DNA of 64,000 nucleotides from Rhipicephalus microplus (taxonomy: Eukaryota; Arthropoda; Arachnida; Ixodida; Ixodidae): NCBI RefSeq assembly GCF_043290135.1, contig NW_027464601.1:5626001-5690000 (forward strand). Reading direction: 5' to 3'. The notes beneath the pieces are model-generated. The model did not search any database, was not told the origin of the DNA, and was given only the letters and a program-made list of their open reading frames with translations. Shown here in pieces: positions 36 through 62,235 of the stretch (its first letter is position 1; every line of letters starts with the position of its first letter). The translations under genes were made by a program, and so were the position numbers.

Positions 36-830
36 CTATGGTATTTTCCAGGCTGAGGCGAGGCCTTCTTGGCAAGCGTTCTCAACACGTGATGCAAACA
101 TCGACCAGTCAGTGCCAATTGCAACACAGGAAGAGAAATTTTTTATGATACCATCGATCGACACGTAGGTGGGTATGTGATCACTCCCATGAGTCTCAAT
201 ATCGCAAAACCACTTAACTTTGTGAGAGAAGCACCATGACACAAATGTCAAGTCAAGGCAACTGCCATACGTGAGACCCCGCAGATATGTGGGGGTACCA
301 TGGTTCATGATGGAAAGGTCGTGATCGGAAGCGAATGTAACGATGTTCCGGCCCCTGGCATTCATCCTAGTGCTCCCCCAAAGCATGTGACGGGCGTTGA
401 AGTCACCGGTGATGATCCAAGCCCCACCGGTTCTCATTAGGATGTCTTTTATTCTGTCGCAGTCAAATCGCGCTGACGGAGATATATATCCACCAATCAG
501 CGTGAACGAAACTGCATTCTTCTTCACACGAAGACACACGTACTGATTGTCGTCATTTGAACTTATTGGGTGCGAAAGATAAGTCAAGTCTGTGCGAATG
601 TAAACAATTACTTTGCTTCGTTCTTCGCAAGCGGCTGAACAAAAAGCTTCATAACCAGACAATCTATAAGGCGTTGATACGTTTGGTTCACATATGACAA
701 GTATAGGGAATTGATTGGCCCGAACAAATTGGCGAAAGTCCGAGATACGGGACTTCATGCCTCTGGCATTCCACTGAAAAATCGACGCACTTTTAACTTC
801 AGTGCGGAAGTGGAGATTTTGTTGAGCCAT
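36..830 (-). pseudogene. LINE-A ORF2, endonuclease domain (truncated)
   Basis: N-terminal 264 residues of a LINE ORF2 polyprotein. The domain is an APE-type endonuclease that nicks target DNA to prime reverse transcription. Family motifs are seen in order: QWNARG near residue 20, the catalytic glutamate in CEPN near 47, GDFNARH near 141, the CLDLTF strand near 190, and SDHIP near 217. All expected catalytic positions look intact. The start is ATG at 828-830, five bases after the ORF1 stop (836-838). That spacing suits termination-reinitiation, a common LINE arrangement (inference). An in-frame TAG at 36-38 ends the frame after the endonuclease, and the frame continues open beyond it to the window edge, so this copy cannot make full ORF2 without readthrough. 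Confidence 0.8.
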
Positions 831-835
831 TGTGC

Positions 836-2225
836 TTATACGAAGTTAGCAAGAACTGGATTCAGTGCATCCAGTATTTGCAGTGCACTCTTAGCTGACA
901 GAGATTGTATGCTGCTCAGTAGCGTGCGAATCGTGGCAATTAATGATTGCACGATTGCAGCCACTTGCCTGTCTTGGTTGGAAAGATCTCGAACCGGGAC
1001 GATTGCAGTCACTTGCCTGTCTTGGTTGGAAAGATCTCGAACCGGGAGCGTGGACTGGCCGTCATGAAGCTCCTTCGGTTCGCTTGATGCTGCTTCCCTT
1101 TGAAGTGCAGGCCACTCTGTCGCAGTTAGGGTATGCTCACTGGCTTTGTCCTTTACAGCCTTTCCCACGGCATGTGGTCTGGGAGGCAAAGGAGGTGGTA
1201 CTGATGAGGAATCATGCAAACGTGTCGAGGAGGTAGCGGGCGTCCTCGACGACCGACGTCGACGTGAACGACGCCTTCTGACTTTAGCTGTGGCTTCTCG
1301 ATGAGATGAGTGATCGCGCACCATCTCCTTCAAGATGGCAATTTCCTTCTGAATCCGCGGGCAGTCCTTCGATGTGGCTTCATGGGATCCATTGCAATTA
1401 GAGCCTTTCTTGACAGCTGCGACGCACTTGTCCGCTTCATGGTGCTCGGCGCAGCGTTGACATACCACCGAATTCTCGCAGACGCTGCTCACATGTCCAA
1501 GTTTCATGCATTTACGGCACTGGAGAGGCTTTGGAATGAAAGGCCGCACAGCATGTCTGAAATACCCCACCTTCACATGAGAGGGGAGTGATGTGCTCTT
1601 AAACGCAATCTTCACACAGCGAGACTTGCCTACCCGGGTGACATCAACAATTGGAGTATCAGTTGTTGACAAGAAGTTGTAAGTCCTTATTGGAAATAGC
1701 GACATCAATGTCGTAGATCACGCCGGTTACTACATCACATCCCAAGGGAACATGTGAGCGCACCTGGTTGCCGTCCAAGTCAGTTACACTGCGCAGAACG
1801 CCCAACGCACTTGCGTGCAAAACGTCCACAGCCAGTATATTCTTTCTGGCGTTCACTCTTATGTCCGTGATCTCATTTGGCACGAGCGTTTCCAGAGACC
1901 TCGACACAGACTGTCTGTTAAGGCGTTTTATGCTGACGGTAGGAAGTGCAGGCAGAAACAGGATGGTATGAGTGTTCGATTTTGGCGCTTCACTTACAGT
2001 TTGAATAGTTGAGGATGAGGATGTCCTCATATTCCTTCTCTTCGCCTTGCGGCTCAGCACAGGTTGGAAACCGTCATCTGAGAAGTCCTCACTGCTGAGA
2101 TAGTAAGCATGAGTATCTTCACTGTCGCGGTCGCTCGCTTGTTCCATCCGCTTCCTGGAGGCGGTCGCCGCTGACGCCGCTGGTGCCGGCAGGCGCCCGG
2201 AGTGGTCTACTTCCATCCCCTCCAA
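836..2225 (-). pseudogene. LINE-A ORF1, gag-like zinc-knuckle protein, frameshifted
   Basis: ORF1 nucleic-acid-binding protein of LINE-A, in two overlapping frames. The first (2225-1659, 188 aa) is an acidic N-terminal region followed by an RRM-like stretch. The second (1708-836) continues it with ESS-poor linker sequence, then CCHC knuckles (CRKCMKLGHVSSVC, then CQRC..H..C, then a third ending SHEATSKDC), then an arginine-rich tract. The frame change falls near 1675-1690. Because the text on both sides reads as one protein of the family, I treat it as a single indel rather than programmed frameshifting. A 48-bp in-frame duplication lies near the C-terminus. Product acts as an RNA chaperone and packaging protein in the family. 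Confidence is high for the family role, lower for the exact clade. Confidence 0.75.
951..1046 (-). repeat. 48-bp tandem duplication in LINE-A ORF1
   Basis: Two near-identical 48-bp units (951-998 and 999-1046) differ at one or two bases. They encode a duplicated 16-residue block containing VRDLSNQDRQV in the ORF1 C-terminal tail. The length is a multiple of three, so the frame is kept. Confidence 0.9.
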
Positions 2226-2306
2226 GGGAGCAGCGGAAACTGATCAACAGACTTAAATTACAACTGAAATACGCCGGAGTTAGCAGAAGCAGCTCCTATT
2301 CAAAAC

Positions 2307-2450
2307 ACTCGTGAAGCCAAGTTTCTGTTATGATTGCTACATGCGGGTCGTATTTCAGAAGCAGATCTTCCAGTTTATCAATTTTATTTACAACACTGCG
2401 GAAATTTGCATTTAGGACACGCAGCTGCCTCGAGTCACACTGATGTATCT
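2307..2450 (-). pseudogene. LINE-B ORF2, endonuclease start only
   Basis: Directly after the ORF1 stop (near 2452), the minus strand reads an N-terminal CR1-type endonuclease: LRVLNANFRSVVNKIDKL near the start, then ITETWL with the expected glutamate. These match the opening of CR1/L2 ORF2 proteins. About 20 bases further on, the frame hits TAG (2296-2298) and family resemblance is lost, where LINE-A begins. No other part of this ORF2 is in the window, so it is a remnant. Confidence 0.6.
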
Positions 2451-2451
2451 G

Positions 2452-3338
2452 TCAATTGGTTTTCCGTGACCTAGAAGCATTAATGATAACACGGCAGTTC
2501 TTGGAATCATCCCACGCATAAAGGGTCCCATCAAGTTTCAGCTTATCATGAATAAGATACGCTTCCTTGCCGTTAGCTTTATCATCCTTCGCTGTTTTCC
2601 ACAAAAGCTTACGCTTGCGCAGCGTAGCTCTGCTAAAATCGTTTTGCACAAATATGTATGTGCCTTTCAAGTTCTTCGCATGGCGCAAAATTGTCTCTTT
2701 CTCAAGAAAATCTTGAAAGTAAACAATAACTGGCCTTTTAGTGGCACCAGGCCTTCCAATGCGATGGATTCTAGCGACAGAGCTGCACTTCTGTTTAAGC
2801 TTCCGTTCGAAAATGCCGTCTATAACCTTTCTTCTTAAGCTTTCATCGTTTTCTTCGCTGTCCTCTTCAACGCCAAAGACGACAAGGTTGGAACGGCGGC
2901 TTCGGTCTTCCAAATCGACAAGTTTCTGAGACTGTTGCTCAATGACCCGTTCGAGATTTGATACCTTTGTCTGTAGTTTGTCAATTTGTAAAGTTTTCTC
3001 CCGAATTTCAAGGAGCAGTTTGTCGAGTTCATTCCATTGAGTGTCGAAATTTGCAACAGTATTTTCAGTCACTGTTAGTCGTTCTCGAACATCAGTAAGT
3101 TCATTAAGATGGTTTCCTGGCCACTCTGAATTTTCGCGAACATTTCCTCAACGGTAGAACCTGGGTTCTCTTCCACGTCCCCACAAAGAAGAAGCACACA
3201 TATACGCAAGCAGTTTTGAACATACAAGACATAGGACCGTGGGCACGGCAAAATAATCAGCATTGGATCATCGCAGCGAAGTGTCGACACGGTTTCACTA
3301 ACCTGTGTGGTGAACAAAAATTTCTGGATGAGCGACAT
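2452..3338 (-). pseudogene. LINE-B ORF1 with 2A-like motif, coiled coil and RRM, frameshifted
   Basis: ORF1 protein of a CR1-like LINE. Upstream frame 3338-3075 starts MSLIQKFLF, has a hydrophobic stretch (ICVLLLCG) and then the 2A-like GDVEENPG followed by serine. It runs into the downstream frame through a one-base shift near 3100-3110; the second frame is open from about 3111 to the stop at 2452. That part has a heptad-like coiled coil rich in L, E, K and Q (about 3100-2880), then an RRM-type fold (SNLVVFGVEE), then a C-terminal RNA-binding domain with RIGRPG, matching LINE ORF1 trimers in general. In the family, ORF1p binds element RNA. Nothing suggests this copy is active. The 2A-containing N-terminus is the unusual part. 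Confidence 0.6.
3156..3182 (-). other. 2A-like ribosome-skipping motif (last proline lost)
   Basis: The minus strand encodes GDVEENPGS. The canonical 2A motif is D(V/I)ExNPG|P, where the nascent chain is released before the final proline. Here the proline codon position reads TCT (serine), one C-to-T change from CCT. The motif follows a leucine-rich stretch, as in functional 2A peptides. 2A-like sequences are known from APE-type non-LTR elements of several animals. With serine in the last position, skipping would be expected to be lost or weak. Confidence 0.7.
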
Positions 3339-17300: not shown

Positions 17301-19823
17301 GCGACTCGGGCGGGGCAGCCTCCCCGTCCCCACTCTCCGTGATCTCCCGACCCAAACCGCGCACACCTACGCTTCCACCCAAGATGCAGACGAGTACGCG
17401 GCCCAGCTCGCTGACTCCAATTGGGTAGAGCACTGTAACAATGTTGCTAAGCATAAGTCAAACCGCAACACGTGGCATTTTTTCAGGGCCCTGTTCGACC
17501 CCACCAAAACCCGAACAGAAAAGCAAAAGCATCTTCAACGTGTGCTCCACACCTACGTGGGTGACATGAATAAATTGGCGAAGGCTCTTAGAGATAAGTA
17601 TCTCTTTGGCCGACAGGACCCCATCGGACCGGCGTACTCATATGCAGGCTCAGAGAACGTAGACTTGGATCGTTGTTTCAACTCCACGATCTGAAGATGG
17701 CCCTGTCTAAAATGAAGCGAGGAACAGCGCCGGGTCGAGATTGAGTGACGGCTAAGCTTTTAGCCAACCTCCCAGACCTGGTATACCTTCACCTCCTCGA
17801 CTACTTCAATCGAATTTGGGAAGGGTGCGAACCACTCCCGATTGATTGGAAAACGGCCCTGGTAACGTTTATACCCAAACTGGGCAAGTCAATAAATATA
17901 GAAAATCTCCGAACCAATTCCTTAACCTCCTGTGTTGGGAAGCTAATAGAAACAATCGTCAAGGATAGGCTTTCCGATTACCTCGAGGCCCGTCGAACCT
18001 TTGCCGTCACTTTGTACAGCTTTCGTCCGCATTGCTCTGCTCAGGAAATTCTCCTGCAACTCAACCATGACGTTATTGAGCCGGTAAAACATCCCAGTGA
18101 CGACAAAACAGTCCTCGCCTTGGATCTCGAGGGAGCTTTTGATAGCGTTACCCACGAAATAACTCTTACCCATCTCTCCCAAGCAGACTGTGTGCGTAAT
18201 GCTTTCAGGTACATCCGTCAGTTCTTGATGAAACGGCAGACATGTCTCCACATTCAAGACAAGAAGCACAGTCCGTATCCTTTAGGTGCTCAAAAAACAC
18301 CACAGGGAGCGGTCCTCTCTCCCCTTCTGCTCAATCTCGCCATGGCTCATCTCCCCCCGCTGCTGAAAGATATCCCCGGTGTACGGCACGCTCTGTATAC
18401 CGACGATATCACGCTGTGGGAATCACACGGTCCTCTTGGCAGCATTGAGGCCAGCCTGCAGCAAGCAGCATCAGTCGTGGATGAATACGCCCACCGCTGC
18501 GGCCTCGAATGTTCCCCCACGAAATCGGAGTACGTGGATTTTCACCCTAAACCATAAGACACGACTCAAATCATACTTTCCCTGTGCACCAGGCCTATCC
18601 CAGAATGCAAAGAAATCCGCGTCTTAGGGCTATTTATACACAAGAGCCGGAAGGTCGATACCACCCTGCGCAAATTACGTACGATCGGGGATCAAGCGGG
18701 CCGCATGGTCCACCGAGTCTCGAACAAGTGAGGGGGTATCAGACGCCGTGATGTTCTACGCCTCGCCAACGCTTTTGTGACCAGTGGCATTCTTTATTCG
18801 ACACCCTACCTATATTTGCGCAAATGCGATGAAAACCCACTGGACAGCATTCCCCAAAAAATATACAAGCGCGCCCTAGACCTCCCGATCACGACGTCTA
18901 ACCGATGTCTTGCAGAGCTGGGCATGATCAACACGTACGGGGAACTCAAAGAGGCCCATCTCAACAACCAGTACCTGCGGCTTACCAAGTCGCACGCTCG
19001 GAGATGTCTCTTACGCCACCTCCATATCCTTTACACCTACAATGCTGAGGAGCGGACCATGATCCCAGAGGACTGGCGTGGAGCATTGGTTATCCAGCCT
19101 TTGCCCCAAAACATGACTAGCGGAACTCACGAAGGCAGGCGAACTGCGTGGGTTACAGCTTTGAAGGAACGCTATGGGTCCCATTTTGGAGTCTTCTATA
19201 CGGAAGCGTCCGACCCTCACCATAGGGGGTGGTACACGGCGGCTGTAGTCCATCAAAACGTGCCTGTCCAAGGGCTCACAATTTGAGCCACAGACATAAC
19301 TCATGTGGAGGAAGTCGTCATAGCTCTCGCCGCTGCGGACCCCGCTTCTCGGCTTATTATTATCGACTCGCGGAGCGCATGTCAGAATCTTCCTAAAGGT
19401 CATATCACCGTTCGTGCTGCTCGAATCTATAAGCGCTGTGATTACATAGACCGCTCGAATACACGTTTCGTCATCTGGACTCCAGCTCACGCAGGACTAG
19501 GTGGTAACGAGGCTGCCGATGCCTCGGCCCGCGCGCTTGTTTTCCGGGACCCGCCTCGCCCTACATCACCTGATGATACAGAACCTAATCTGGTAAACTC
19601 CTTTTGAGAAATTACAGTGATTTAGAAATCGAACAGGCTCCGATTTCTGCCCCCGGTGCCGGGCCTGACTAAGTCGGGCGAGCACTGGCTCTTGTGCCTT
19701 TACACCAACACAGCATTGTGCCCGGCTATACTTAAGCACTTCAATCCGGCCTTCTCTGGGGAATGCCCACACTGTGCCCATCCGCTTGCAGACACTTTTC
19801 ACATGGTGTGGGCATGCGCTTCT

Positions 19824-19977
19824 ATGATGTTTCAGTTAACTGGAAGCGCGAGGGTAAACACCGACACAAAGCAAAGTGGAGGCACACAGCACGAGCGCCT
19901 GGGCGCTCGTGCTGTGTGCCTTCTTTTTTCTTTGTGTCTGTGTTTACCCTCGCGCTTCCAGTTAACTGAACCATCAT
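19824..19977. repeat. Inverted repeat, 76-bp arms
   Basis: Arms 19824-19899 and 19902-19977. The symmetric positions add to 39801 throughout, so there is no net indel between arms. Mismatches cluster in the A/T-rich inner third. Single-stranded RNA or DNA from this locus would form a long hairpin. Confidence 0.95.
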
Positions 19978-20010
19978 GAATTACCAACTAGCCCACCTTT
20001 CCGTCCTATT
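19825..20010 (+). mobile_element. PLE-type fold-back element with 13-bp target duplication
   Basis: A 186-bp insertion in LINE-D ORF2. It is flanked by a perfect 13-bp direct repeat, GCATGCGCTTCTA, at 19812-19824 and 20011-20023; LINE-D coding sequence resumes after the second. Bases 19824-19899 and 19902-19977 form a near-perfect inverted repeat (76-bp arms, six mismatches, 2-base loop). After the arms comes ACCAACTAGCCCA, the same terminal motif as the 3' end of the PLE at 59465. The body also shares a GCGCTC...CTTTTTTCTTTGTG layout with that PLE. It has no coding capacity, so I call it a non-autonomous PLE derivative; the shared mechanism is inference. Confidence 0.75.
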
Positions 20011-20278
20011 GCATGCGCTTCTAACCCGGCGGTCCCCCCAAATCAATTCCCCTACACCCCCTATACGAGAGAGCTGGGAGGCTGTCCTGCTCGACTGCTT
20101 CGCCTTGGCAGGCCAAAGAGCCCTCGTGGCCAGGCCACGTGCCGACGCAGAAGCTGCAGGGGTCACGGACTAGGGACTCCTTGTAGAGCTTGTAAAGGGT
20201 CGGTCATTGAGGTTGTACCTCTCTCTCAAATGTAAATAGTTTCTGTAAAAGTGTTTCACCACCGCCACCACCACCACT

Positions 20279-20789
20279 CGCTTTTAGAATGCCAGGCGTG
20301 TTCGAATAATACCTCTGCATTCAATTTGCTACGTCTGCTTACAAAGATGTTTCTGGGTAAATTCAACACGGGCTCCTTCGGCGCATTGTCGAAATAGCTG
20401 GAGGGCGACGAGCACTCAAATATAAAGATAAAGACGCCATGTGAACTGTAAAGTGCCTCTAAACCTGCATCGTCTTCAGACGTGCAAAATCGCGAAATGA
20501 CATTTTATGAAGCTAAACAAATAATACTATCGCCTTGATTTGCACAGCGTCTCCTAATGAGCAGCATCTTGTAAAAAATAAAATATTGTTGTTTTCAGTG
20601 TCATAACGTAAAAAACCTGACACAATTGGAGGGCTACATTCCTCGGCGATGGCAAGCAACCACTTTGGTTCCATAGCCTACCCTTCATTGCCGCAGAAAG
20701 TTGTTCCAGAGTATAGATGCCTCATGAAACTTGAAATTTTAGCATCGGTATGACATTAAACATTTGGTAAAGTTGGTACTGCATGATTT
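20279..20789. other. Gene-free stretch with one interspersed repeat core
   Basis: Mostly unassigned. It includes minus-strand copy 2 of the interspersed core (about 20645-20715, GGCAATGAAGGGTAGG). Confidence 0.4.
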
Positions 20790-22067: not shown

Positions 22068-23576
22068 ATGACGGAGAGTACGGCGTCTGCATCTTCTCCT
22101 GGTGTTCCTGCGGCCGGAGATGATGCGGTATTTACATCTCCTTCTGCGACCACAACCTTCGTGCTCGAACCCCCGCGGGATCCTGGCACGTTCAGCGGTT
22201 CCGGCGATCCAGATGAAGTTGACGTTGAAGATTGGCTGGCAGAGTACGAACGTGTGAGTACTCGATACCGATGGGGCCCGACTCTTATGCTGGCAAACCT
22301 GTTATTCTATCTTAGGGGAACCGCCCCGCCGCGGTGGTCTAGTGGCTAAAGTACTCGGCTGCTGACCCGCAGGGCGCAGATTCGAATCCCGGCTGCGGCG
22401 GCTGCATTTCCGATGGAGGCGGAAATGTTGTAGGCCCGTGTGCTCAGATTTGGGTGCACGTTAAAGAACCCCAGGTGGTCTAAATTTCCGAAGCCCTCCA
22501 CTACGGCGTCTCTCATAATCATATAGTGGTTTTGGGACGTTAAACCCCACATATCAATCAATCATATCTTAGGGGAACCACCAAATCGCGGTATGAGAAC
22601 CATGAAACAGAACTTGGGAGTTAGGCAGTGTGCAGGGAGAAAATGCTGGACCTGTTCGGAAAGCCGATTGGAAGAAAAATGGCCGCGAACAAAATGCTCG
22701 CGTCTCGGGCGCAGACCTCGACCGAGTCTTACGTCTCCTATATTGAAGATGTGTTGCCGTTGTGTCGCAAAGCCAATGCCGAGATGCCGGAGGCTGACAA
22801 GGTCGGTCATATTCTTAAGGGGATTGCGGATGACGCATTCAACCTCCTCATCTGCAAAAATTTTTTCTACAGTGGACGCCATTATAAAAGAATGTCGGCG
22901 CTTTGAGCAAGCGAAGAGCCGGTGGATTAACAGCGTGTTTACCCGCCTTCCGAATACGGCTGCAACATCATCTTGCGAAGACCGTGCAAGAACACAGCCA
23001 CCACCTCTAGATTCAACGGATCAGGTGACCCGAATTGTACGGGGCGAACTTGAAGCCATTGCCTCTGCTCAGGCTCACACCGCTGCAAGTGACACCACCC
23101 CACTCACTGCTAACATGGTTCAAGCCATCGTCCGCCAAGAACTCGCCAGCATAGGTATTCCCTCGGTGTGCGCTTTGCCCAGCCCGCAGCGAGCTTCATG
23201 GCGTCCACCCTCGTCCTATCACGAGCAGCAGTTTACAGCCCGATCTCGTGACCCTGCTGCGTGGAGAACCGTCGAAAATCGACCAATTTGTTTTCATTGC
23301 CACCATATGGGTCATGTCGTCCATTACTGAAATTACCGCTGGTCCTCGCCACCTCGGACTTCATCTCAACCTCACTACCGACAGGACAGCACCCGCTTCG
23401 CGTCTGCCACGCAGCCTTCTCCGCAAAACAACTACAAAAGGTTCAACAGCCGATCTCCGTCACCGCATGGTCATCAGTCGCGTTCACCTCCAGGACGTCG
23501 CCAGTCGTCTCGCTCACCGCAGACTCGCAGGCCGTCGTCCCCATTCAACCCCGCTCCTGCCTACCCGGAAAACTAA
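22068..23576 (+). pseudogene. Gypsy gag, broken by SINE and indels
   Basis: Capsid/nucleocapsid precursor. ATG 22068 (MTESTAS) was chosen because upstream frame sequence is LTR and leader. The capsid region (DPGTFSGSGDPDEVDVEDWL) runs to 22307, where a Ruka SINE is inserted with a 15-bp duplication. Gag resumes at 22565-22579 in another frame (DLFGKPIGRKMAANKML, then SYIEDVLPLCRKANAE). A slip in the A/T run near 22860 moves back to the first frame (VDAIIKECRRFEQAKS). A zinc knuckle follows, CFHCHHMGHVVHY, where the last cysteine is gone and a TGA (23328-23330) follows; a 3-base loss could explain both. The gag frame ends at TAA 23574-23576, overlapping pol. Confidence 0.85.
22323..22564 (+). 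mobile_element. tRNA-derived SINE, Ruka type, in Gypsy gag
   Basis: 242-bp SINE flanked by the 15-bp direct repeat TATCTTAGGGGAACC (22308-22322 and 22565-22579). A tRNA-like head carries a pol III A box (GTGGTCTAGTGGCTAAAG) and B box (GATTCGAATCCC), then a tRNA-unrelated body (GGAGGCGGAAATG, then CCCGTGTGCTCAGATT) and an ATCA tail. The layout and body match the tick SINE known as Ruka, from memory. It postdates the Gypsy copy. Confidence 0.9.
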
Positions 23577-26500
23577 ACGGTGCAGCGCCCGGAGGTGACG
23601 CTGCATTTTCGACTCCCTCCACAAATCCTCTCTTGACACTTCCGATGAGACGAAATTTGTTAGACGTTGCCGTTGACGGTGTGCCTATTTATGCCCTTAT
23701 AGATACTGGAGCGCACATTTCTGTAACGAGCGCGAACCTTCGCCGACGCCTACAAAAAGTGCTCACGCCTGCCGCTTCCCACAAACTTCGTGTCGCTGAT
23801 GGAAGGACCCCTGATGTTCAAGGGATGTGCACAGCCCGTGTGTCCATTGCCGGTCATCCTACATTAGTTCAGTTTGCCGTCATTGAAATGTGTCGTCATG
23901 ACCTAATACTTGGTTTGGACTTCCTGTCATGGCATTCTGCGCTCATTGATTGTGCCACTGGTGCTCTTCAGCTTGAACTGCCGCAGTTTGCTGATTTTCC
24001 AGCAGACTATTCTCCCCGTTTATGCTCTCGTCACCACGTTCGCTTGCCTCCGCAAGCTGCTACATATGTCGCTTTGTCGTGCTCACGTCATGTGCCTGAC
24101 GGTTACTACCTCGTCACACATATAGTCGACGTACTGATGGCCCGAGACGTCGCCCTTGCTCACACTGTTGTCGCCGTAGCTAATAATACAGTGGTTCTAC
24201 CACTACTCAACGTGAGTCTCTTGACTCACGTTATTCCGCAAGACATGTCTTTGGCCACCCTATTTCCACTTGACAGCTGCAACGTTACTGGTTTGGACAC
24301 CGATACTACATTCCCCTGTCTTGGCCGCAAAAACACTCTGCCTGCAGATGACATTAACAAGATGATTGCTCCCGACCTCACTGCAGTGCAAGCTGCTAGT
24401 CTGCTAAAATCATATAGTCTGCTAAAATCATATAGTCTGCTAAAATCATATAGAGACGTTTTCGACTTTGACCACCGCCCTCTCAGCCAAACAACTGCAG
24501 TGACTCACCGGATCAACACTGGTGATGCCAGTCCTATACGGCGGCGTCCATATCGCGTATCTCACAAGGAACGCCAAGTAATTCAAAATGAAGTGGATAA
24601 AATGATTACTAAAGATGTAATAGAACCCTCATCCAGCCCCTGGGCCTCCCCAGTCGTGCTCGTTGAGAAGAAAGATGGCAGCTGGCGCTTTTGCGTGGAC
24701 TATCGCCATTTAAACAAAGTGACCCACAAAGATGTCTACCCTTTGCCTCGGATTGATGACGCCCTCGATTGCCTCCATGGTGCCCAATACTTTTCGTCTA
24801 TCGACCTTCGGTCCGGCTATTGGCAAATTTCCGTCGACCCCATGGATCGTGAAAAAACCGCTTTTGTTACGCCCGACGGCCTCTACCAGTTCAAAGTCAT
24901 GCCGTTTGGACTGTGTAATGCGCCGGCAACTTTCGAGCGCTTGATGGACTCCCTTCTCCGAGGATATAAGTGGTCCATCTGCTTATGTTACTTAGACGAT
25001 GTCATCGTCTTTTCACCTACCTTTGACAGCCATATAACACGTCTGTCAGCCGTTCTGGATGTTTTTCGAAGAGCTTCTCTCCAGTTCAATTCTGCAAAAT
25101 GCCATTTTGGACGTCGCCAAATAACCATACTCGGCCACCTTGTCAGTACTGATGGTGTTCAACCAGTTCCCGAAAAGGTACGAGCAGTACAACAATTTAC
25201 TGAACCACGCTCAACCAAGGACGTCCGAAGTTTTGTAGGGCTATATTCCTATTTTCGTCGATTTGTCCGCAACTTCGCCGACATCGCTCGACTGCTTACT
25301 GATCTCCTAAAGAAGGACGTTCCCTTCGCATGGGGTATTGAGCAAGCGGACGCCTTTTCGGCTCTTATCCATCTGCTGACTACGCCACCAATACTGGCCC
25401 ATTTCGACCCAGCATCACCTACAGAGCTTCGGACCGATGCCAGTGGCCATGGAATTGGAGCGGTCCTTGGCCAACGACAGCACGGGAAGGACCGCGTGAT
25501 TGCTTACGCCAGTCGTCTTCTTTCACCTGCCGAACGGAAGTTCTCCATCACTGAGCGCGAATGCCTAGCTTTAGCGTGGGCCGTGGCGAAATTCAGGCCT
25601 TACCTGTATGGCCGAACTTTTTCCGTTGTTACGGACCACCACGCTCTTTGCTGGCTGTCATCGGTAAAGGACCCATCTGGACGTCTTGGTCGCTGGGCGC
25701 TCCGTCTGCAAGAATACTCATTCGTGGTCAACTACAAGTCGGGACGCCTCCACACAGACGCAGACTGTTTGTCACGTTATCCGGTTGAAACACCCGACTT
25801 GACAGACCTTGATTCAGACCCCGGCGTTCTCTCCATCCATGCTTCGCGTGATATCTCCACCGAACAACGACGTGACCCGTCGTTACTCTCCATCATCGAG
25901 CGTCTGACCTCTGCTCCAACAGACCCTTCTGTTTGCCTGTTCGAACTGCACAACATTCTGTACCGTCGCAGCTTCAACGCTGATGGCCCGGAATTACTAC
26001 TCGTGCTTCTCCATCACCTGCGTACCAGCGTTCTCGAACAACTACATGACGTACCTACAGCCGGTCACCTAGGCGTCTCTCGTACCTACGATCGTGTGCG
26101 ACGTCGCTTTTTCTGACCCGGACTGTATCGTTCTGTGGTTCGCTACGTCACTGCTTGCAACCGCTGCCAACGCCGCAAGCGCCCCTCTGTGCTACTGTCG
26201 GGCCTCCTACAGCCCTATGACATACCGACGGAACCATTTTTCCGTGTTGGCCTTGACCTGTTGAGCCCGTTTCCTACGTCCACCTCTGGAAATAAATGGG
26301 TTGCAGTCGCCACAGACTACACCACACGCTTTGCCATCACTGAAGCACTGCCGACAAGCTGTTCCACTGACGTCGCTGACTTTCTCTTGTATGAAGTCAT
26401 TCTTCATCATGGCGCTCCGCGGCAGCTGCTTACTGATCGAGGAAGGTACTTTCTTTCACGTGTTGTGGATGACATTTTCCGCGCCTGCTCCACTGAGCAC

Positions 26501-27106
26501 AAGCTTACCACCGCTTATCATCCACAGACAAATGGATTGACCGAGCGTCTGAACCGAACGCTGACGCAGATGCTGTCAATGTACGTTTCGCCAGATCACC
26601 GTGACTGGGACAAAGTACTCCCCTTTGTCACGTTCGCGTACAATTCTTCACGGCACGACACAGCTAGTTATTTGCCGTTTTATTTGCTATTTGACCGACA
26701 TCCAGCATTACCATTTGACACGCTCCTTCCTTCGGCTGCCCCCTTGTCTACTGAGTACGCCAGCGATGTCGTTTCTCGAGCCCATGCAGCCAGTCAGCTT
26801 GCCCGTGATCGGCCGCACTTGTCGCAAGCACAGCAAAAAGATCGCTATGACAGTCGTCACCAAATCGTATACTTCTCGCCGGGGTCTCTGGTACTTCTCT
26901 GGACACCAAACTGCCAAGTCGGCTTATCAGAGAAGCTACTATCACACTACTATGGCCCCTACAAAGTTTTACGACAACTTAGTGACGTGAGCTACGAGAT
27001 CACACCCTTAAACAATGCCTTTTCGACCACCTCACTCCAGACAGACGTTGTACACGTTTCCAGACTGAAACCGTATCACCCTCCTCGTTCGTCGCCGCCG
27101 TACTAA
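23577..27106 (+). pseudogene. Gypsy pol: protease, RT, RNase H, integrase
   Basis: Pol lies in the frame -1 to gag, open through 23261-26116; I start it after gag, but expression by frameshift near GGAAAACTAAACGG (23567-23580) is likely. Aspartic protease: ALIDTGAHISVTS (DTGA), LILGLDFL. RT: VEKKDGSWRFCVDYR, PFGLCNAPATFERLM, and CYLDDVIVF (YLDD at 24989-25000). RNase H: TDASGHGIGAVL, ITERECLALAWA, VTDHHALCWL, catalytic residues kept. Integrase: HDVPTAGHLG and CNRCQRRK zinc finger, ATDYTTRF, LLTDRGRYF and TERLNRTL, so the DDE set is kept. A TGA at 26114-26116, where family members have TGG (W), splits the zinc-finger region from the rest. It ends HVSRLKPYHPP; I see no chromodomain. Confidence 0.92.
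24397..24450 (+). repeat. Three perfect 18-bp repeats in pol
   Basis: Unit TAGTCTGCTAAAATCATA three times in tandem (24397-24414, 24415-24432, 24433-24450), in frame, encoding SLLKSY repeats in the protease-RT linker. Relatives have one copy, so this is a recent expansion in a linker. Confidence 0.95.
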
Positions 27107-34500: not shown

Positions 34501-35479
34501 AACCTACAAGCTACAAGCTTCCGCCTTGCCGGTAATGCCCACACTCAGTTCCATGTTGGCTGTGACCGCTTCGCAAAGTATTGAGGCCAGTCCACGCTAA
34601 AACTATCGTAACTTCATCTGTTGCCTCGCAGGCCTCTAAGAAGAACGAGGCTGCTTGGTGTCGACATGCTAAGGAATTTCAGCAGCTGCATCACCATCGA
34701 TGGCTGCCTGCGAACTACGACCATTCTGTGGCTTAGGTGGAAACCGATTAAGTGACCAATAGGTGGTGACCATCAACACTCTTGTTGCTCGAAAGGAATG
34801 ACCGGAAAAGCTGAAGTTATCTCTATTCTTAGACCACTCTCAAAAGCTACTGTGGCGCGGAATAGACACTCGGGGTGCGGTAGCAATTTTGAATAGTGTG
34901 GGGATTCAAGGTCAGTACTTCTTGTGGCTGCACTCTTTTCCACATCTCTGCTACGACCAAGAACAACCTGACTGGTACCGAGCTTGGAGCTCAAGAAGAG
35001 TTCCACTTCGAGGCTGCATCTTTGTGCTGTAGTTTACCTGTTAATCTTCCAAACTGTTCGTAGGTACAAGACTCTGACTCATCACGTCCAAAGACCAATT
35101 CTGAATATGAACCTCGTGAACGGCATTGCTACAACGACGCAGCCGAAGGGAATCACCTCGACTGTGGAGCTGTTCCCTGCAATACCTCTGACGACCTTTT
35201 GGTAAAACAACTCGCGGGCCACACCTAACAGGCGGCATGGTACACTTTGGAGTACCCTCCGCTCTTCCTGTGTTTCACAATTCTTTCCATCTTCCACTAC
35301 TGATTTCCCACGTGGTGTTCTTCTGAGATAGAGACAGTTACGATGCCACACTTTTCTGTTCAGTTCCTCTTTCTTCAAGGGCACTTCGAGGAGGCGAGTG
35401 CGTGGGTCATCAAAACTAGATTGACCTAGAACAGTATGTCACTGTAATCGAAACTCTACACCGTGGAAGTGTGGCAGCT
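31570..35479. other. No recognised gene
   Basis: Includes an unrecognised 123-aa frame (32006-32377, plus) and interspersed repeat core copy 3 (about 33462-33525, minus). 34630-35380 has mixed-strand frames up to 100 aa without family features. CGCCTTGCCGG occurs twice near 34490-34540, a small local duplication. Confidence 0.35.
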
Positions 35480-35667
35480 TGGGCTAGTTGGTATGGCATG
35501 ACGATAGTTATAGCGCGAAAACAAAACGATGACACAGAGACAAGAAGGACACGTAAGACACGAGCACGACACAGAGACAAGAAGGACACGTAAGACACGA
35601 GCACTCGTGTCTTTCGTGTCCTTCTTGTCTCTGTGTCGTCGTTTTCTTTTCGCACTATAACTATCGT
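35480..35667 (-). mobile_element. PLE-type fold-back element, copy 2
   Basis: Minus-strand 3' end ACCAACTAGCCCA (35480-35492 reverse), same terminal word as at 19825-20010 and 59465. Arms 35501-35564 and 35604-35667 (64 bp, four mismatches) fold back. The 39-bp spacer is a second copy of the inner arm (unit GACACAGAGACAAGAAGGAC..., period 37, starting 35531 and 35568). Flanking target duplication not found. No coding capacity. Confidence 0.7.
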
Positions 35668-36195: not shown

Positions 36196-38514
<2,319 letters not shown>

Positions 38515-44064: not shown

Positions 44065-44268
44065 TGATGAGATCCAGTGGTACATGCTATACTATAAAAA
44101 ACAGTATGATATCGCTGATGCAATAACGCAGACGATAGCGTCAGTACGAATGCAGAACAACAAGACACAGACAAAAAATAGGCCACACACCGAGAGCAAC
44201 ACCCAGCATTCACTGCTTGTGTCTTTTTTCTTGCACAGTTATACTTGAGTTATGATTCACGAACTTGG
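44065..44268 (+). repeat. Possible degraded PLE fold-back, copy 3
   Basis: Contains CAAGACACAGACAAAAAA and, inverted, TGTGTCTTTTTTCTTG, then TTATGATTCACGAACTTGGC near 44249, a 9-of-12 match to the PLE terminal word ACCAACTAGCCC. Order of parts matches copies 1 and 2. Similarity is weak. Confidence 0.35.
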
Positions 44269-52134: not shown

Positions 52135-52378
52135 GCATCGCCGTGGTGGTCTAATGGCTAAGGCACTCGACTGCTGACCCACAGGTTGCGGGATTGAATC
52201 TTGGCTGCGGCGGCCGCATTTCCGATAGAGGCGGAAATGTTCTAGGCCCGTGTGCTTAGATTCGAGTGCACGTTAAAAAACCCCTGGTGGACGAAGTTTT
52301 TAGAGCCCTCCACTACGGCGCCTATCATATTCATATGGTGGTTTTGGGTCGTTAAACTCCACATATAAATCAAATTCG
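52135..52378 (+). mobile_element. tRNA-derived SINE, Ruka type, copy 2
   Basis: Same family as 22323-22564: A box GTGGTCTAATGGCTAAGG, B box-like GGATTGAATCTT (decayed), body GAGGCGGAAATG and CCCGTGTGCTTAGATT. Flanked by TTTCTGTT (52127-52134 and 52379-52386). It lies in antisense to the surrounding transposase pseudogene, exactly at the end of block C. Head decay suggests it is older than the Gypsy-resident copy. Confidence 0.88.
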
Positions 52379-58310: not shown

Positions 58311-59464
58311 GTAAGAATTGTCCGGTGCTTATATTTTTTACTGCATCGTTTTTTAGGCCTTTACATTTTAAATGCCATGTATACCCTAGAGTCGCAAGCT
58401 TGGTGAGCGCACCGTTCTGTCTTGGCAGTCAAGTATGTATAGTAATGCATGCTGCTGATATTTTGGAGCTCTTTATGTGCCGTATTATGTGCGCGAGCTT
58501 TACAAAGGAGTTTGACGAAGCAGGTTGGTCTCTTGCCGAGTGAATTAACTGCAATGAAAGTATGTTATCCTGCCTGATGTAAAGTTAACAGGACATAATT
58601 AAGCATCGTATCGCCCACCTAATTTGGTTTACTTGGCGCGCCATGTGTTTGAGTCTATGTGAAGAAAATGTGCATTTTTGCTTATGTCCTTCATAACTAT
58701 GTAACTTTAACTGGTGCAGTGCCTATTTATCGAGCATACCAAGTTTCCCTTGAAATCACTTCACATGGGCGTACGGACAGAAGCATTCTTGTCTGGCGCA
58801 GCAGAGCGTGTGGCTGTCGATGCTGGTGTTGACCGCAACTGCTACCTCACGTTAGCTATATACTGCCATTCATGCTTGAGTTAAAGCACAAGGGCCTGCG
58901 ATGCGGTACGACCATACATGCAGTTATGATTTCAAAATTGCTGCGCCCTCATAATATATTCTTGTTGCTATGAGCCTCTTTGTAACAGAGCAAAATCGAG
59001 GCTGTGCAGGTGGGAAACTGGGCATGTGCCAGGATTCTGTGCTGCACAACTAGTACCAAGAGGGATGCAGTACGAAGCAGGCATAGAGCAGAACATTAGG
59101 CATGGCAGTACCTTCAACCCGTCCCCCCTTTTGATGCCCCTGCTGTCAAAGGTGCTAGGGAAAATCACATTTATTCAGGCAATGTTCATTTCACATTTAT
59201 GTTACCCTAGCATGGTGTTGCACGCTGTGTTGAAACCATATAAGTTAAACCACTTCGGTATATTTCAACCAAAATACAATATTCATTTCCAAAAGCATAC
59301 ATGTTTTGCATTTATATATTGCCTTAAAGTGACGTGCATTTGTCTCATGAAAAAAGTTACAAATATAAACACTACTGCAATTTCTCTACGAAATATTCTA
59401 AAAAATGATTGTTGTTCTTGTTGCGACTAGTCCATGCACCTTAAAGCTTAACAGTACGTTATGT

Positions 59465-60185
59465 TGGGCTAGTTGGTACATATTAGGCTTAAATACGTGG
59501 TGCAAGGTTGACAAAGAGAAAAAAGATGAGACAGAAAGAGCGCCAACTCGCAACTAAGTTCATTCTCATGAAGCATTCACAATATATATGCTCTTAGAGG
59601 ACATGCGCAGACCATTTTATTCATCACACGTGCAGGCATGAACATTTTTATGATGTAGTAACCGATAATTGCAATCATGATATCTGGAAACCAGCAACAA
59701 ACAGATATGTTTAATGTAAAGACGTCGAAAAAACCAAACACACCCAAGCCTGCGCAAAAAATATGCGAGGAAAAACCAGCAAAAAAGGACTGACAGACAC
59801 TTCGGAGCACCCGACTAAAGTACATCTAGAACCAACAGTTGAAATTCACTGTTATGGAACACAACTGAAGGCACGCTGACGCACGAGTCACCTTTTTTCA
59901 TTATGTGAAAGGCTTCGAGTAACTCCCGTGCCGGCGCATCCCGGCTACTTCCAAAGTACTCGCGTGCGATCGAACTGCGGTGTGCAGCCACACGAAGCAC
60001 AGTGAAAAGGCAAATGAGACCCTGTTTCATTACTAATTAATTGGGAATGCTCCCTTAGACGGTCATTTGTACAGCGCCCTGTCTGGCCTATATAGACATT
60101 GCCACAGCTCATGAGAATTTCATAAACAGTGCCCACAGCACAACGTAGGAACAGCTTTACGTGCTCCTTATCGCACACCACCTTG
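59465..60185 (-). pseudogene. Penelope-like element (PLE-2), GIY-YIG end
   Basis: 3' end of a PLE on the minus strand. GTVYEILMSCGNVYIGQTGR (60145-60080; GIY-YIG core motif VYxI...VYIGQTGR), CTNDRLREH, then HCASCGCTPQFDRTRV, a one-base shift near 59960, and RDAPARELLEAFHIMKKGD then SCVSVPS. The GIY-YIG domain is the endonuclease that PLEs use for target nicking. It is 5'-truncated near 60185 (no RT visible). The 3' UTR ends in ACCAACTAGCCCAAC (to 59465), the terminal word shared with the two fold-back elements. Confidence 0.75.
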
Positions 60186-62235
60186 GCACCTCTTGAAGAA
60201 GTGCGGGCACAGAGCCTTGAATCTTATTTGGAGCCTAAAAAACCACTGGCACATGGTGCCGATTTGCAACCTTTTTCAGGTTGTGGGAGATTTTGTGCAT
60301 GTATGGTACAACATGCGGTCTTTTCCTCTGTCCTTGCAACGGCTCTTTATAGATTATCTCTGCTATGTCCATGAACAAGCATAGTAAAATTGCTGAATAT
60401 GTGGCTTACTAGTTAAATGTATTTCCATAAATACCATACTGCTGAAGTTGTTTTATAAACCCGAAAAGCTTTAAATGCGAAGCTGAAAACTTGAGGTAGC
60501 CACTTCCTCGCATGATAAATATTCCTACTGAGGAGCCACCATCTCGCAGGCGAAAGGTAAGTCTCTCAAATCGCTGCTTATTTTCAGATGTAGTGATGAC
60601 TTGTTCGCTATATTTTTAAATCACAAGCTGCATGCATGCAATTTTTTTCTCAGTTTTCTATTGAAATTCCATCGAAGTAAAAATTATGTTCCCAGCAACT
60701 AAAAAGAATCAAACAGCCCTCATTCGCTGTGGGACTTAATGTTGCACAACATGCTTTGCAGTTTGCTGCCTGTTGGTGTGTCACTGATTTATTCTAAATT
60801 ACTGTATAAGCCCCCTCCCCCACACACACACCATTTCATAAAACATTGCATTACTCCAGATATGGGCACTTGTCTGATCCAAACAGCAAAAAGCAAGATG
60901 GTAGCCAATGAAAAACTGTAGAAAGGGCACTGAACAAATTAAAAAATAACCTATAAAAAGTTTTAATTTTGCTCGAACGACTTCAAGGGTCTGATAAATA
61001 GAGTTTATTTCTTACATTTTCAAACAGTTGGCTGTATTTTTGGTATATTGTCAGCCTATGGCTGTGTGATGCCTGTCTTCGAGCACAAGGCATGACGCCA
61101 CATTCTTCCTGGTGCTTACAGAGTGCATGTGCTCTTGTTTTCTCTTTCTTTTATTGGTGCCTCTTTTCATTCCACTCTCTCTCTCTCTTCCACAAAAGCG
61201 CCGATGCTTTACTCCTAGCGGTAGCGTTGTTTGCTGCCATAGTGCTTCGAGGAAATGTGGTTCAAGCTGGGCAGGTTGAGAAACGCGGGCGACGGCTGGC
61301 ATTGGTGGACTCCCTGTTTCCGGAAAGTTTCATGTCACGCTGACTCGTTAAGGTGTGGCCGGCTAAACACGGCGGTTTGTGACAAACTAATGAAATCAAT
61401 TATTGTTCTCTAATTTCGGTGAGAAATGAAAGTTTTGTTTATCTATAGCAAACCCCAAGGGTTCAATTCAGCTAGAAATTCTGGCGACCAAACTTTTGTT
61501 CAATATTTCTTAAGGCAAAGATACAGTGGTTGCATAATAAAAAAAAGCATGTTTGTTTTGAAACAGCAAAAAATTATGTTTCTGAACCCAGTGAAGAAAC
61601 TCTTCAGAGTTGCTGCAATATAGGCCGTTAATTTCATTCCTGATACTCACGAGATGATCTTCTGTAGTGCGTGCAAGTCGGTTTTCATGCCTGTTGTCAC
61701 TGCTGTCTTAAGGGACACTCATTTCATGCCCCATATTGATTTCTTTTGCTGTCTATCCTGAAATGCCGAAAAGTGCTGCTCACATTTTTCCTGATCGAAG
61801 CTCAATGACTTTGATCTTTATTGGGGCAACGTAGGAGTGCACTGTACCCCTAGTGAATTGCACTAGAAGTTTAAGAACAGCAGCTTTGGGCTTGTGGCGT
61901 GTTTTCTGCTCATTCTAGTTCCAGCCCACTGATCTGAACTCAGCTTAATTTGAACCATTTTATAGTCCCCTTCTAGCTTGAAATAATCAGCTTTTACTGT
62001 ATTTTATTTCATTGATTGTCGCAGTGTGCCTTTTTTATTAATATCCTAAACATTTTCTACCTACTGCAAGGAAGTTAGATGGTAAGTATTGCTTTCAGTA
62101 TTGATCCTTCTAGCTCTTATTCAAAAAGTAATAAAGCGTAAAGAGTTTCACAATTGCCGTCATGGCTGCTTGTGGGGCTGGCTAACACTCGCAGGTTTAG
62201 GTGCACATATATACCCTATATGGTGGACAAGAGGA

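Follow-up and report, generated by a model that had tools for sequence, protein, structure and literature searches.

A 186-bp fold-back insertion in Rhipicephalus microplus, best read as an inverted pair of Penelope-like element ends with no coding part

What kind of integration event leaves a long hairpin, flanked by a perfect target duplication and with nothing between its arms, inside another mobile element? This question is raised by a short insert (E1) in Rhipicephalus microplus, located in contig NW_027464601.1; the whole 64,000-nt stretch that was analysed is referred to here as the window. An earlier note on this DNA described a 186-bp insertion with 76-bp inverted arms, a 2-base loop, and a 13-bp duplication, and this description was confirmed by the coordinates, the complementarity, and the predicted fold (Table 1). 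The insert spans positions 19825-20010 within a degenerate LINE, and the two target site duplication (TSD) copies at its borders are identical at 13 of 13 positions. The inverted arms (19824-19899 and 19902-19977) extend over 76 nt with 92% complementarity and are separated by 2 nt; this length takes in one TSD base as the outermost pair, and the strict insert has 75-nt arms, of which 69 positions match. As RNA, E1 folds with an energy of -127.1 kcal/mol, compared with a mean of -47.9 kcal/mol (standard deviation, 4.8) for shuffled sequences (z = -16.4); none of 200 shuffles was as stable, and 34 nt at the right end remain outside the fold.

The duplication is beyond chance expectation. Between the 40 nt on either side of E1, exact matches extend to 13 nt, whereas the longest match in 2,000 Markov flank pairs was at most 10 nt and none reached 13. 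Among 3,000 pairs drawn from the window at the spacing of E1, two reached 13 nt, with the site of E1 itself still in the sampled pool. The duplicated target contains 7 G/C among 13 bases, i.e., it is not AT-rich.

Table 1. Positions and strands of the insert, its target, and the related elements in the window
Feature	Position	Strand	Remark
E1, left TSD copy, 13 bp, GCATGCGCTTCTA	19812..19824	+	Direct repeat; flanks joined across it
E1, left arm, inverted copy of presumed PLE pseudo-LTR end, without tail	19825..19899	-	
E1, centre, 2 nt (TG)	19900..19901	.	
E1, right arm, presumed PLE pseudo-LTR end, direct orientation	19902..19976	+	
E1, unpaired tail, 34 nt	19977..20010	+	Read as PLE ORF start
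E1, right TSD copy, 13 bp	20011..20023	+	
Degenerate LINE from the RT domain on (RT, weak RNase H, C-terminal Cys/His stretch)	17745..20173	+	5' part lies outside the delimited range
E2, fold-back with the layout of E1, tail begins ATGCCATACCAACTAGCCCA	35467..35667	-	Motif copy at 35492; 3' limit set from the tail length of E1
E3, broken, 5'-truncated PLE-like remnant, 3' end runs into ATGTACCAACTAGCCCA	59450..60330	-	5' limit set by eye

The interrupted LINE is recognized by its reverse transcriptase (RT) domain (RVT_1 at 17745-18554, E = 6.9e-26). When the two flanks were joined in a script with a single TSD copy, the frame continued through the site (ADTFHMVWACASNPAVPPNQFPYTPYT), and this continuity identifies the LINE as the target. 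The earlier note had placed the insert inside an I-clade LINE. The LINE itself stands, and the clade is consistent with an RNase_H match that is weak and no proof (E = 0.0026; 18.4 bits against a Pfam cut-off of 25.8). Other retroelements share the window. A Gypsy-type LTR retrotransposon lies at 23252-27106 (+), with protease, RT, RNase H, and integrase in two long frames. Another LINE (36-3147, -) carries an Exo_endo_phos_2 endonuclease (E = 1.1e-19) and has two upstream frames with no Pfam match at E 0.01, one of them with Cys-rich, knuckle-like stretches.

The origin of the insert is suggested by its right end. The window has exactly three copies of the motif ACCAACTAGCCCA, at 19983 (+) in the tail of E1, at 59477 (-) at the end of E3, and at 35492 (-) at the end of E2, and the 14-mer TACCAACTAGCCCA was found in none of 100 Markov windows. 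In all three exact copies, an in-frame ATG stands zero or one codon ahead of TACCAACTAGCC: it directly precedes TAC CAA CTA GCC in E3 and lies one codon earlier in E1 and E2. Taken together with A19976, the E1 tail starts ATG AAT TAC CAA CTA GCC (MNYQLA), and the frame is open across the tail in the three copies (MNYQLAHLSVL in E1, MPYQLAQAATL in E2, and MYQLAQHNVLL in E3), which share the pattern M-x-Y-Q-L-A with x missing from E3. In both hairpins, the boundary of the left arm falls at this ATG (CA|TG in E1, CGT|CATG in E2), and the outer end of the left arm of E1 falls at the presumed start codon of a Penelope-like element (PLE). After the shared 12-mer, 9 of 15 positions agree between E1 and E3, up to the base that starts the duplication of E1, and none of the next 5 do. 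On the strength of the ATG and the frame, the motif probably represents the first codons of a PLE reading frame, and such a position would fit the “tail” of published PLEs. The statement that the insert ends with the terminal motif of a PLE thus holds insofar as the motif is shared with the PLE-like E3, and we would amend it to the probable first codons of the ORF; likewise, the term inverted terminal repeats needs qualification, as the tail is confined to the right end and the left arm goes no further than the presumed start codon.

A sequence resembling the start of the tail, ATCATGCAGTACCAACT, is located less than 1 kb from E1 (E5; 20769-20787, -). It reads ATG CAG TAC CAA CT (MQYQL), is 34 to 42% identical to the other copies, and could represent either an extremely short PLE end or a chance match. 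Another possible PLE end (E4; 44131-44196, -, within 44121-44196) was suggested by nhmmer (E = 3.4) and by a BLAST match to E2 (E = 0.16), with about 70% identity to the left part of E2 over 57 nt. Both were aligned and kept out of the argument.

E3 is called PLE-like on the basis of a sub-threshold Pfam match and of the look of its motif. Its GIY-YIG-like stretch (60223-59948), which reads GNVYIGQTGRCTNDRLREH and which we take to be a PLE endonuclease, matches PF01541 with an E value of 0.01 and 16.6 bits, below the Pfam cut-off of 22.6; the two neighbouring stop-free pieces matched no Pfam family. A nucleotide profile built from the right arms and tails of E1 and E2 found the 3' end of E3 with an E value of 0.002, at a low alignment accuracy of 0.60. 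No relative of this stretch emerged: two protein searches with it returned 1 and 17 word-sharing candidates, none of which scored, and 8 pattern matches in viral contigs yielded none that was confirmed. No exact repeat of 9 nt or longer was found in the upstream stretch searched for a duplication at E3, and no intact PLE is present in the 64-kb window.

E2 repeats the layout of E1. Its arms are 91% identical over 67 aligned positions, its fold reaches -110.9 kcal/mol (z = -16.0), and the dinucleotide TG lies at the centre of both hairpins. The right arm of E2 contains a tandem duplication of 37 nt, identical at 33 of 33 positions compared, which is possibly younger than the arms, and it begins one 37-nt unit farther upstream than the left arm. 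The best candidate for a target duplication of E2 was equalled by 96 of 1,500 random pairs and is therefore unconvincing. Beyond the left end of E2, 11 bases (CAATAGCGCTA) resemble the stretch of E4 past the equivalent boundary (CAATAACGCAG), so that the left arm of E2 might extend past the limit given here; the likeness falls within the BLAST match of E 0.16 and is explained by no model considered in this study. In a fold-back scan of the window for near-adjacent arms with exact 10-mer seeds, a design that more distant or more diverged arms escape, three centres were obtained, namely, E1, E2, and a TA run at 37.3 kb. The TA run is long (37237-37408) and folds back as a simple repeat. A 194-nt inverted repeat pair (36665-36858 and 52166-52359), 70% complementary and 15 kb apart, was noted among the longest 25 of 189 pairs.

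Several element classes were considered for the insert and rejected. The earlier note had argued that it is not a typical MITE, and we agree: the right end is a 34-nt unpaired tail, and the single copy with a TSD shows 13 bp, features that do not fit a MITE or TIR DNA transposon. Across copies, the TSD is 13 bp in E1, with none convincing in E2 and none found in E3. An autonomous PLE is excluded by size, as 186 bp is too short for an RT or endonuclease (EN) coding sequence. A metazoan retrozyme was rejected on the absence of a type I hammerhead ribozyme; with a limit of E 10, neither E1, E2, nor the 3' end of E3 matched a hammerhead family. A hammerhead ribozyme in the pLTR (pseudo-LTR) has been reported in some PLEs and does not define all of them. 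Short-word searches returned matches that we take as chance: TACCAACTAGCCCA was found in at least 120 stretches of viral_contigs, and CATGNNNTACCAACTAGCCCA in none of viral_contigs and in two genome_contigs entries, both bacterial MAG records. A 23-mer of E2 had no match in viral_contigs.

Arm comparisons bear on whether the two hairpins have a common history. Within a hairpin, the arms are 92% (E1, 75 positions) or 91% (E2, 67 positions) identical, whereas identity between E1 and E2 arms is 49 to 54%, which suggests that each hairpin formed independently. E1 arms are 46 to 51% identical to E3, with the right arm alone at 51% over 67 positions. Homology of the arms between copies would accordingly be argued from the shared tail, the position, and a weak profile score. 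Inheritance of a hairpin as a unit would predict left arms closest to left arms, unless arms were homogenized. Judging from these identities, each hairpin probably arose separately, from a different PLE subfamily. The left arms of E1 and E2 nevertheless align at their inner (centre) ends within about 4 nt, in a comparison that depends on two hairpins and on the alignment of divergent sequences, and their outer ends lie within about 2 to 4 nt of the same codon. Such recurrence at the same places, with n = 2 hairpins, suggests that PLE integration regularly includes this step. The proposal of a Penelope-driven nonautonomous palindrome retains its PLE origin, while a propagating family is unsupported and the arm identities suggest independent formation.

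From the features described above, E1 is very probably a PLE-derived inverted pair. In the explanation that we prefer, E1 was inserted by the PLE machinery as two truncated pLTR copies placed head to head with no coding part, the left arm beginning at a tail-less start and the right arm at a tail start; we put the probability of this full reading at roughly 0.5. The optional PLE tail, present at the right end only, would cover about 11 codons at the start of the ORF, which in a tandem transcript lies after the pLTR. The PLE protein would cut the two strands of the LINE target at points 13 nt apart, a stagger visible here only as the 13-bp duplication. At one strand end, reverse transcription would begin at the tail start site and copy back through the pLTR, producing the right arm with its tail; at the other, the start would lie some 34 nt farther inward, at the tail-less site where the ORF begins, producing the left arm. 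Both copies would stop near one place, where a template jump would join the strands. The suggestion in the earlier note of inverted PLE terminal repeats that lack the coding middle remains the best-fitting reading, with an end common to the PLE-like E3 and to E2.

This reading draws its support from the exact tail motif in E3 and E2, from left arms that end at the ATG, and from the 34-nt one-ended tail, which is unpaired in the fold and has an in-frame ATG in three of three copies. A tail-less left arm together with a tailed right arm is what two starts on two strands would be expected to give. Several points count against it: the window holds no intact PLE, the GIY-YIG match of E3 falls below the cut-off, arm identity between copies is low, only two hairpins are present, and E2 has no convincing duplication. 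In addition, the target of E1 is unlike the AT-rich targets reported for PLEs, and the near-equal arms of E1 are unexpected from independent cDNAs unless the 5' end of the template is fixed; two-strand priming needs such a fixed end or a preferred joining point. In E2, symmetry holds only if the 37-nt tandem duplication came later. The PLE-derived identity is firmer than the two-strand priming step.

The closest known counterparts come from rotifers. PMC3846280 describes Penelopes of Adineta vaga in which an inverted pLTR lies head to head with a direct one and palindromes occur at the junctions; there, the pLTR reaches into the ORF, and an optional 31-bp tail extends further on one inverted pLTR. 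In that account, TSDs of rotifer Penelopes are 8, 9, or 10 bp in some cases and absent in others. Pen2a_Av and other A. vaga elements resemble E1 in their head-to-head pLTRs, palindromic junctions, one-sided tail, and short TSD. However, the cases described there keep ORF sequence or captured sequence, whereas nothing lies between the arms of E1; their arms measure 181 to 218 bp against 75 nt in E1, with its TSD of 13 bp; and the arm boundary falls at codon 12 in A. vaga and at presumed codon 1 in E1.

The enzymology of the proposed route has a counterpart in PAc, a Poseidon PLE of Anolis, in which RT starts internally at two adjacent sites whose interval is the 30- to 40-bp tail, and whose protein cuts and extends both target strands in vitro (PMC11167929). 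PAc and E1 would be alike in a tail defined by two RT starts within the start of the ORF, and two-strand extension could yield the layout of E1. They differ in that RT starts 111 to 118 nt into the ORF in PAc and about 35 nt into the presumed ORF in E1, and in that PAc has a hammerhead ribozyme and prefers AT-rich targets, whereas E1 has no ribozyme match and a target that is not AT-rich. Internal starts, two-strand extension, and the tail are thus published for other PLEs, and we infer that they apply to E1. Metazoan retrozymes (PMC7229834) are likewise short nonautonomous animal retroelements whose TSDs, when present, exceed 4 bp; they are multicopy repeats with type I hammerheads, in contrast to the inverted pair of E1, which has no hammerhead match. 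E1 can also be set against L1. In twin priming of L1, the second target strand primes on the element RNA and an inverted segment results. L1 inverts a different 5' segment, whereas in E1 the same segment would have been copied twice from near-fixed starts.

The strongest rival keeps the PLE insertion and changes the way in which the arms were made: first-strand cDNA would fold back at its end and copy itself, and the hairpin would be joined across the break. Self-priming accounts for the arm symmetry, with the equal arms and 2-nt spacer of E1 and the TG centre in both hairpins, and PMC3846280 infers it from palindromes at inverted junctions, there with an antisense template. It leaves the tail-less left arm unexplained, as copying should continue through the tail to the target junction and both left arms go no further than the presumed start codon; in addition, one arm of E2 is longer than the other by a 37-nt repeat unit, although the duplication may have arisen afterwards. 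We regard self-priming as possible yet rather unlikely, and favour two-strand priming over it.

Could the hairpin instead belong to a self-standing family, MITE-like or a nonautonomous retroposon, that multiplies as a hairpin and merely borrows a PLE end? Two hairpins with a common layout and tail within 64 kb would suit such a family. The greater likeness of arms within than between hairpins does not, since left-left likeness would be expected unless arms were converted, and the extreme right end, an unpaired tail, has no inverted repeat; we consider this improbable. Still less credit can be given to a remnant of a longer insertion (inverted pLTR, direct pLTR, ORF, pLTR) whose coding part was later deleted: PMC3846280 records the full arrangement in rotifer Penelopes, but the perfect TSD of E1 directly follows a tail of published length, so that a deletion would need to end exactly there, and E2 has the same layout. 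A microRNA or siRNA hairpin gene is hardly credible, for although the hairpin is long and stable and several Rfam microRNA models score its shape, the listed scores are all below the family gathering scores, no match in the window reaches gathering, and the TSD and tail account for the locus as an insertion.

E1 is best regarded as a minimal version, free of coding sequence, of the inverted-pLTR arrangement already known from PLEs, and it represents no new class of mobile element. Since pairs of inverted pLTRs that meet at palindromic junctions have been published before, a coding-free hairpin can count as a novel variant at most. None was described among the literature matches listed, which consist of titles and the starts of abstracts and lie mostly outside the subscription literature; matches to a search for Penelope in ticks dealt only with Aedes and mites.

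Two published accounts bear on the completion of PLE integration and on the frequent inversion of PLE terminal repeats: self-priming is inferred in PMC3846280, and internal start sites with extension of both strands are shown in vitro in PMC11167929. In E1, the two presumed start points and the place of joining lie within less than 200 bp, with a clean TSD and a one-sided tail; a tally of such arm ends, centres, and duplications over a genome rich in PLEs would tell self-priming and two-strand priming apart. More tentatively, coding-free hairpins may be a regular by-product of PLEs, in which both cut strands prime on the same short RNA from fixed starts 34 nt apart; this is a doubtful extension at present. 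If it is true, the products would meet at a fixed template end, and PLE-rich genomes would fill with hairpins of independent origin that record each step of the reaction. These hairpins could also feed small-RNA silencing of the parent element, although their role as sources of double-stranded RNA against it is speculation.
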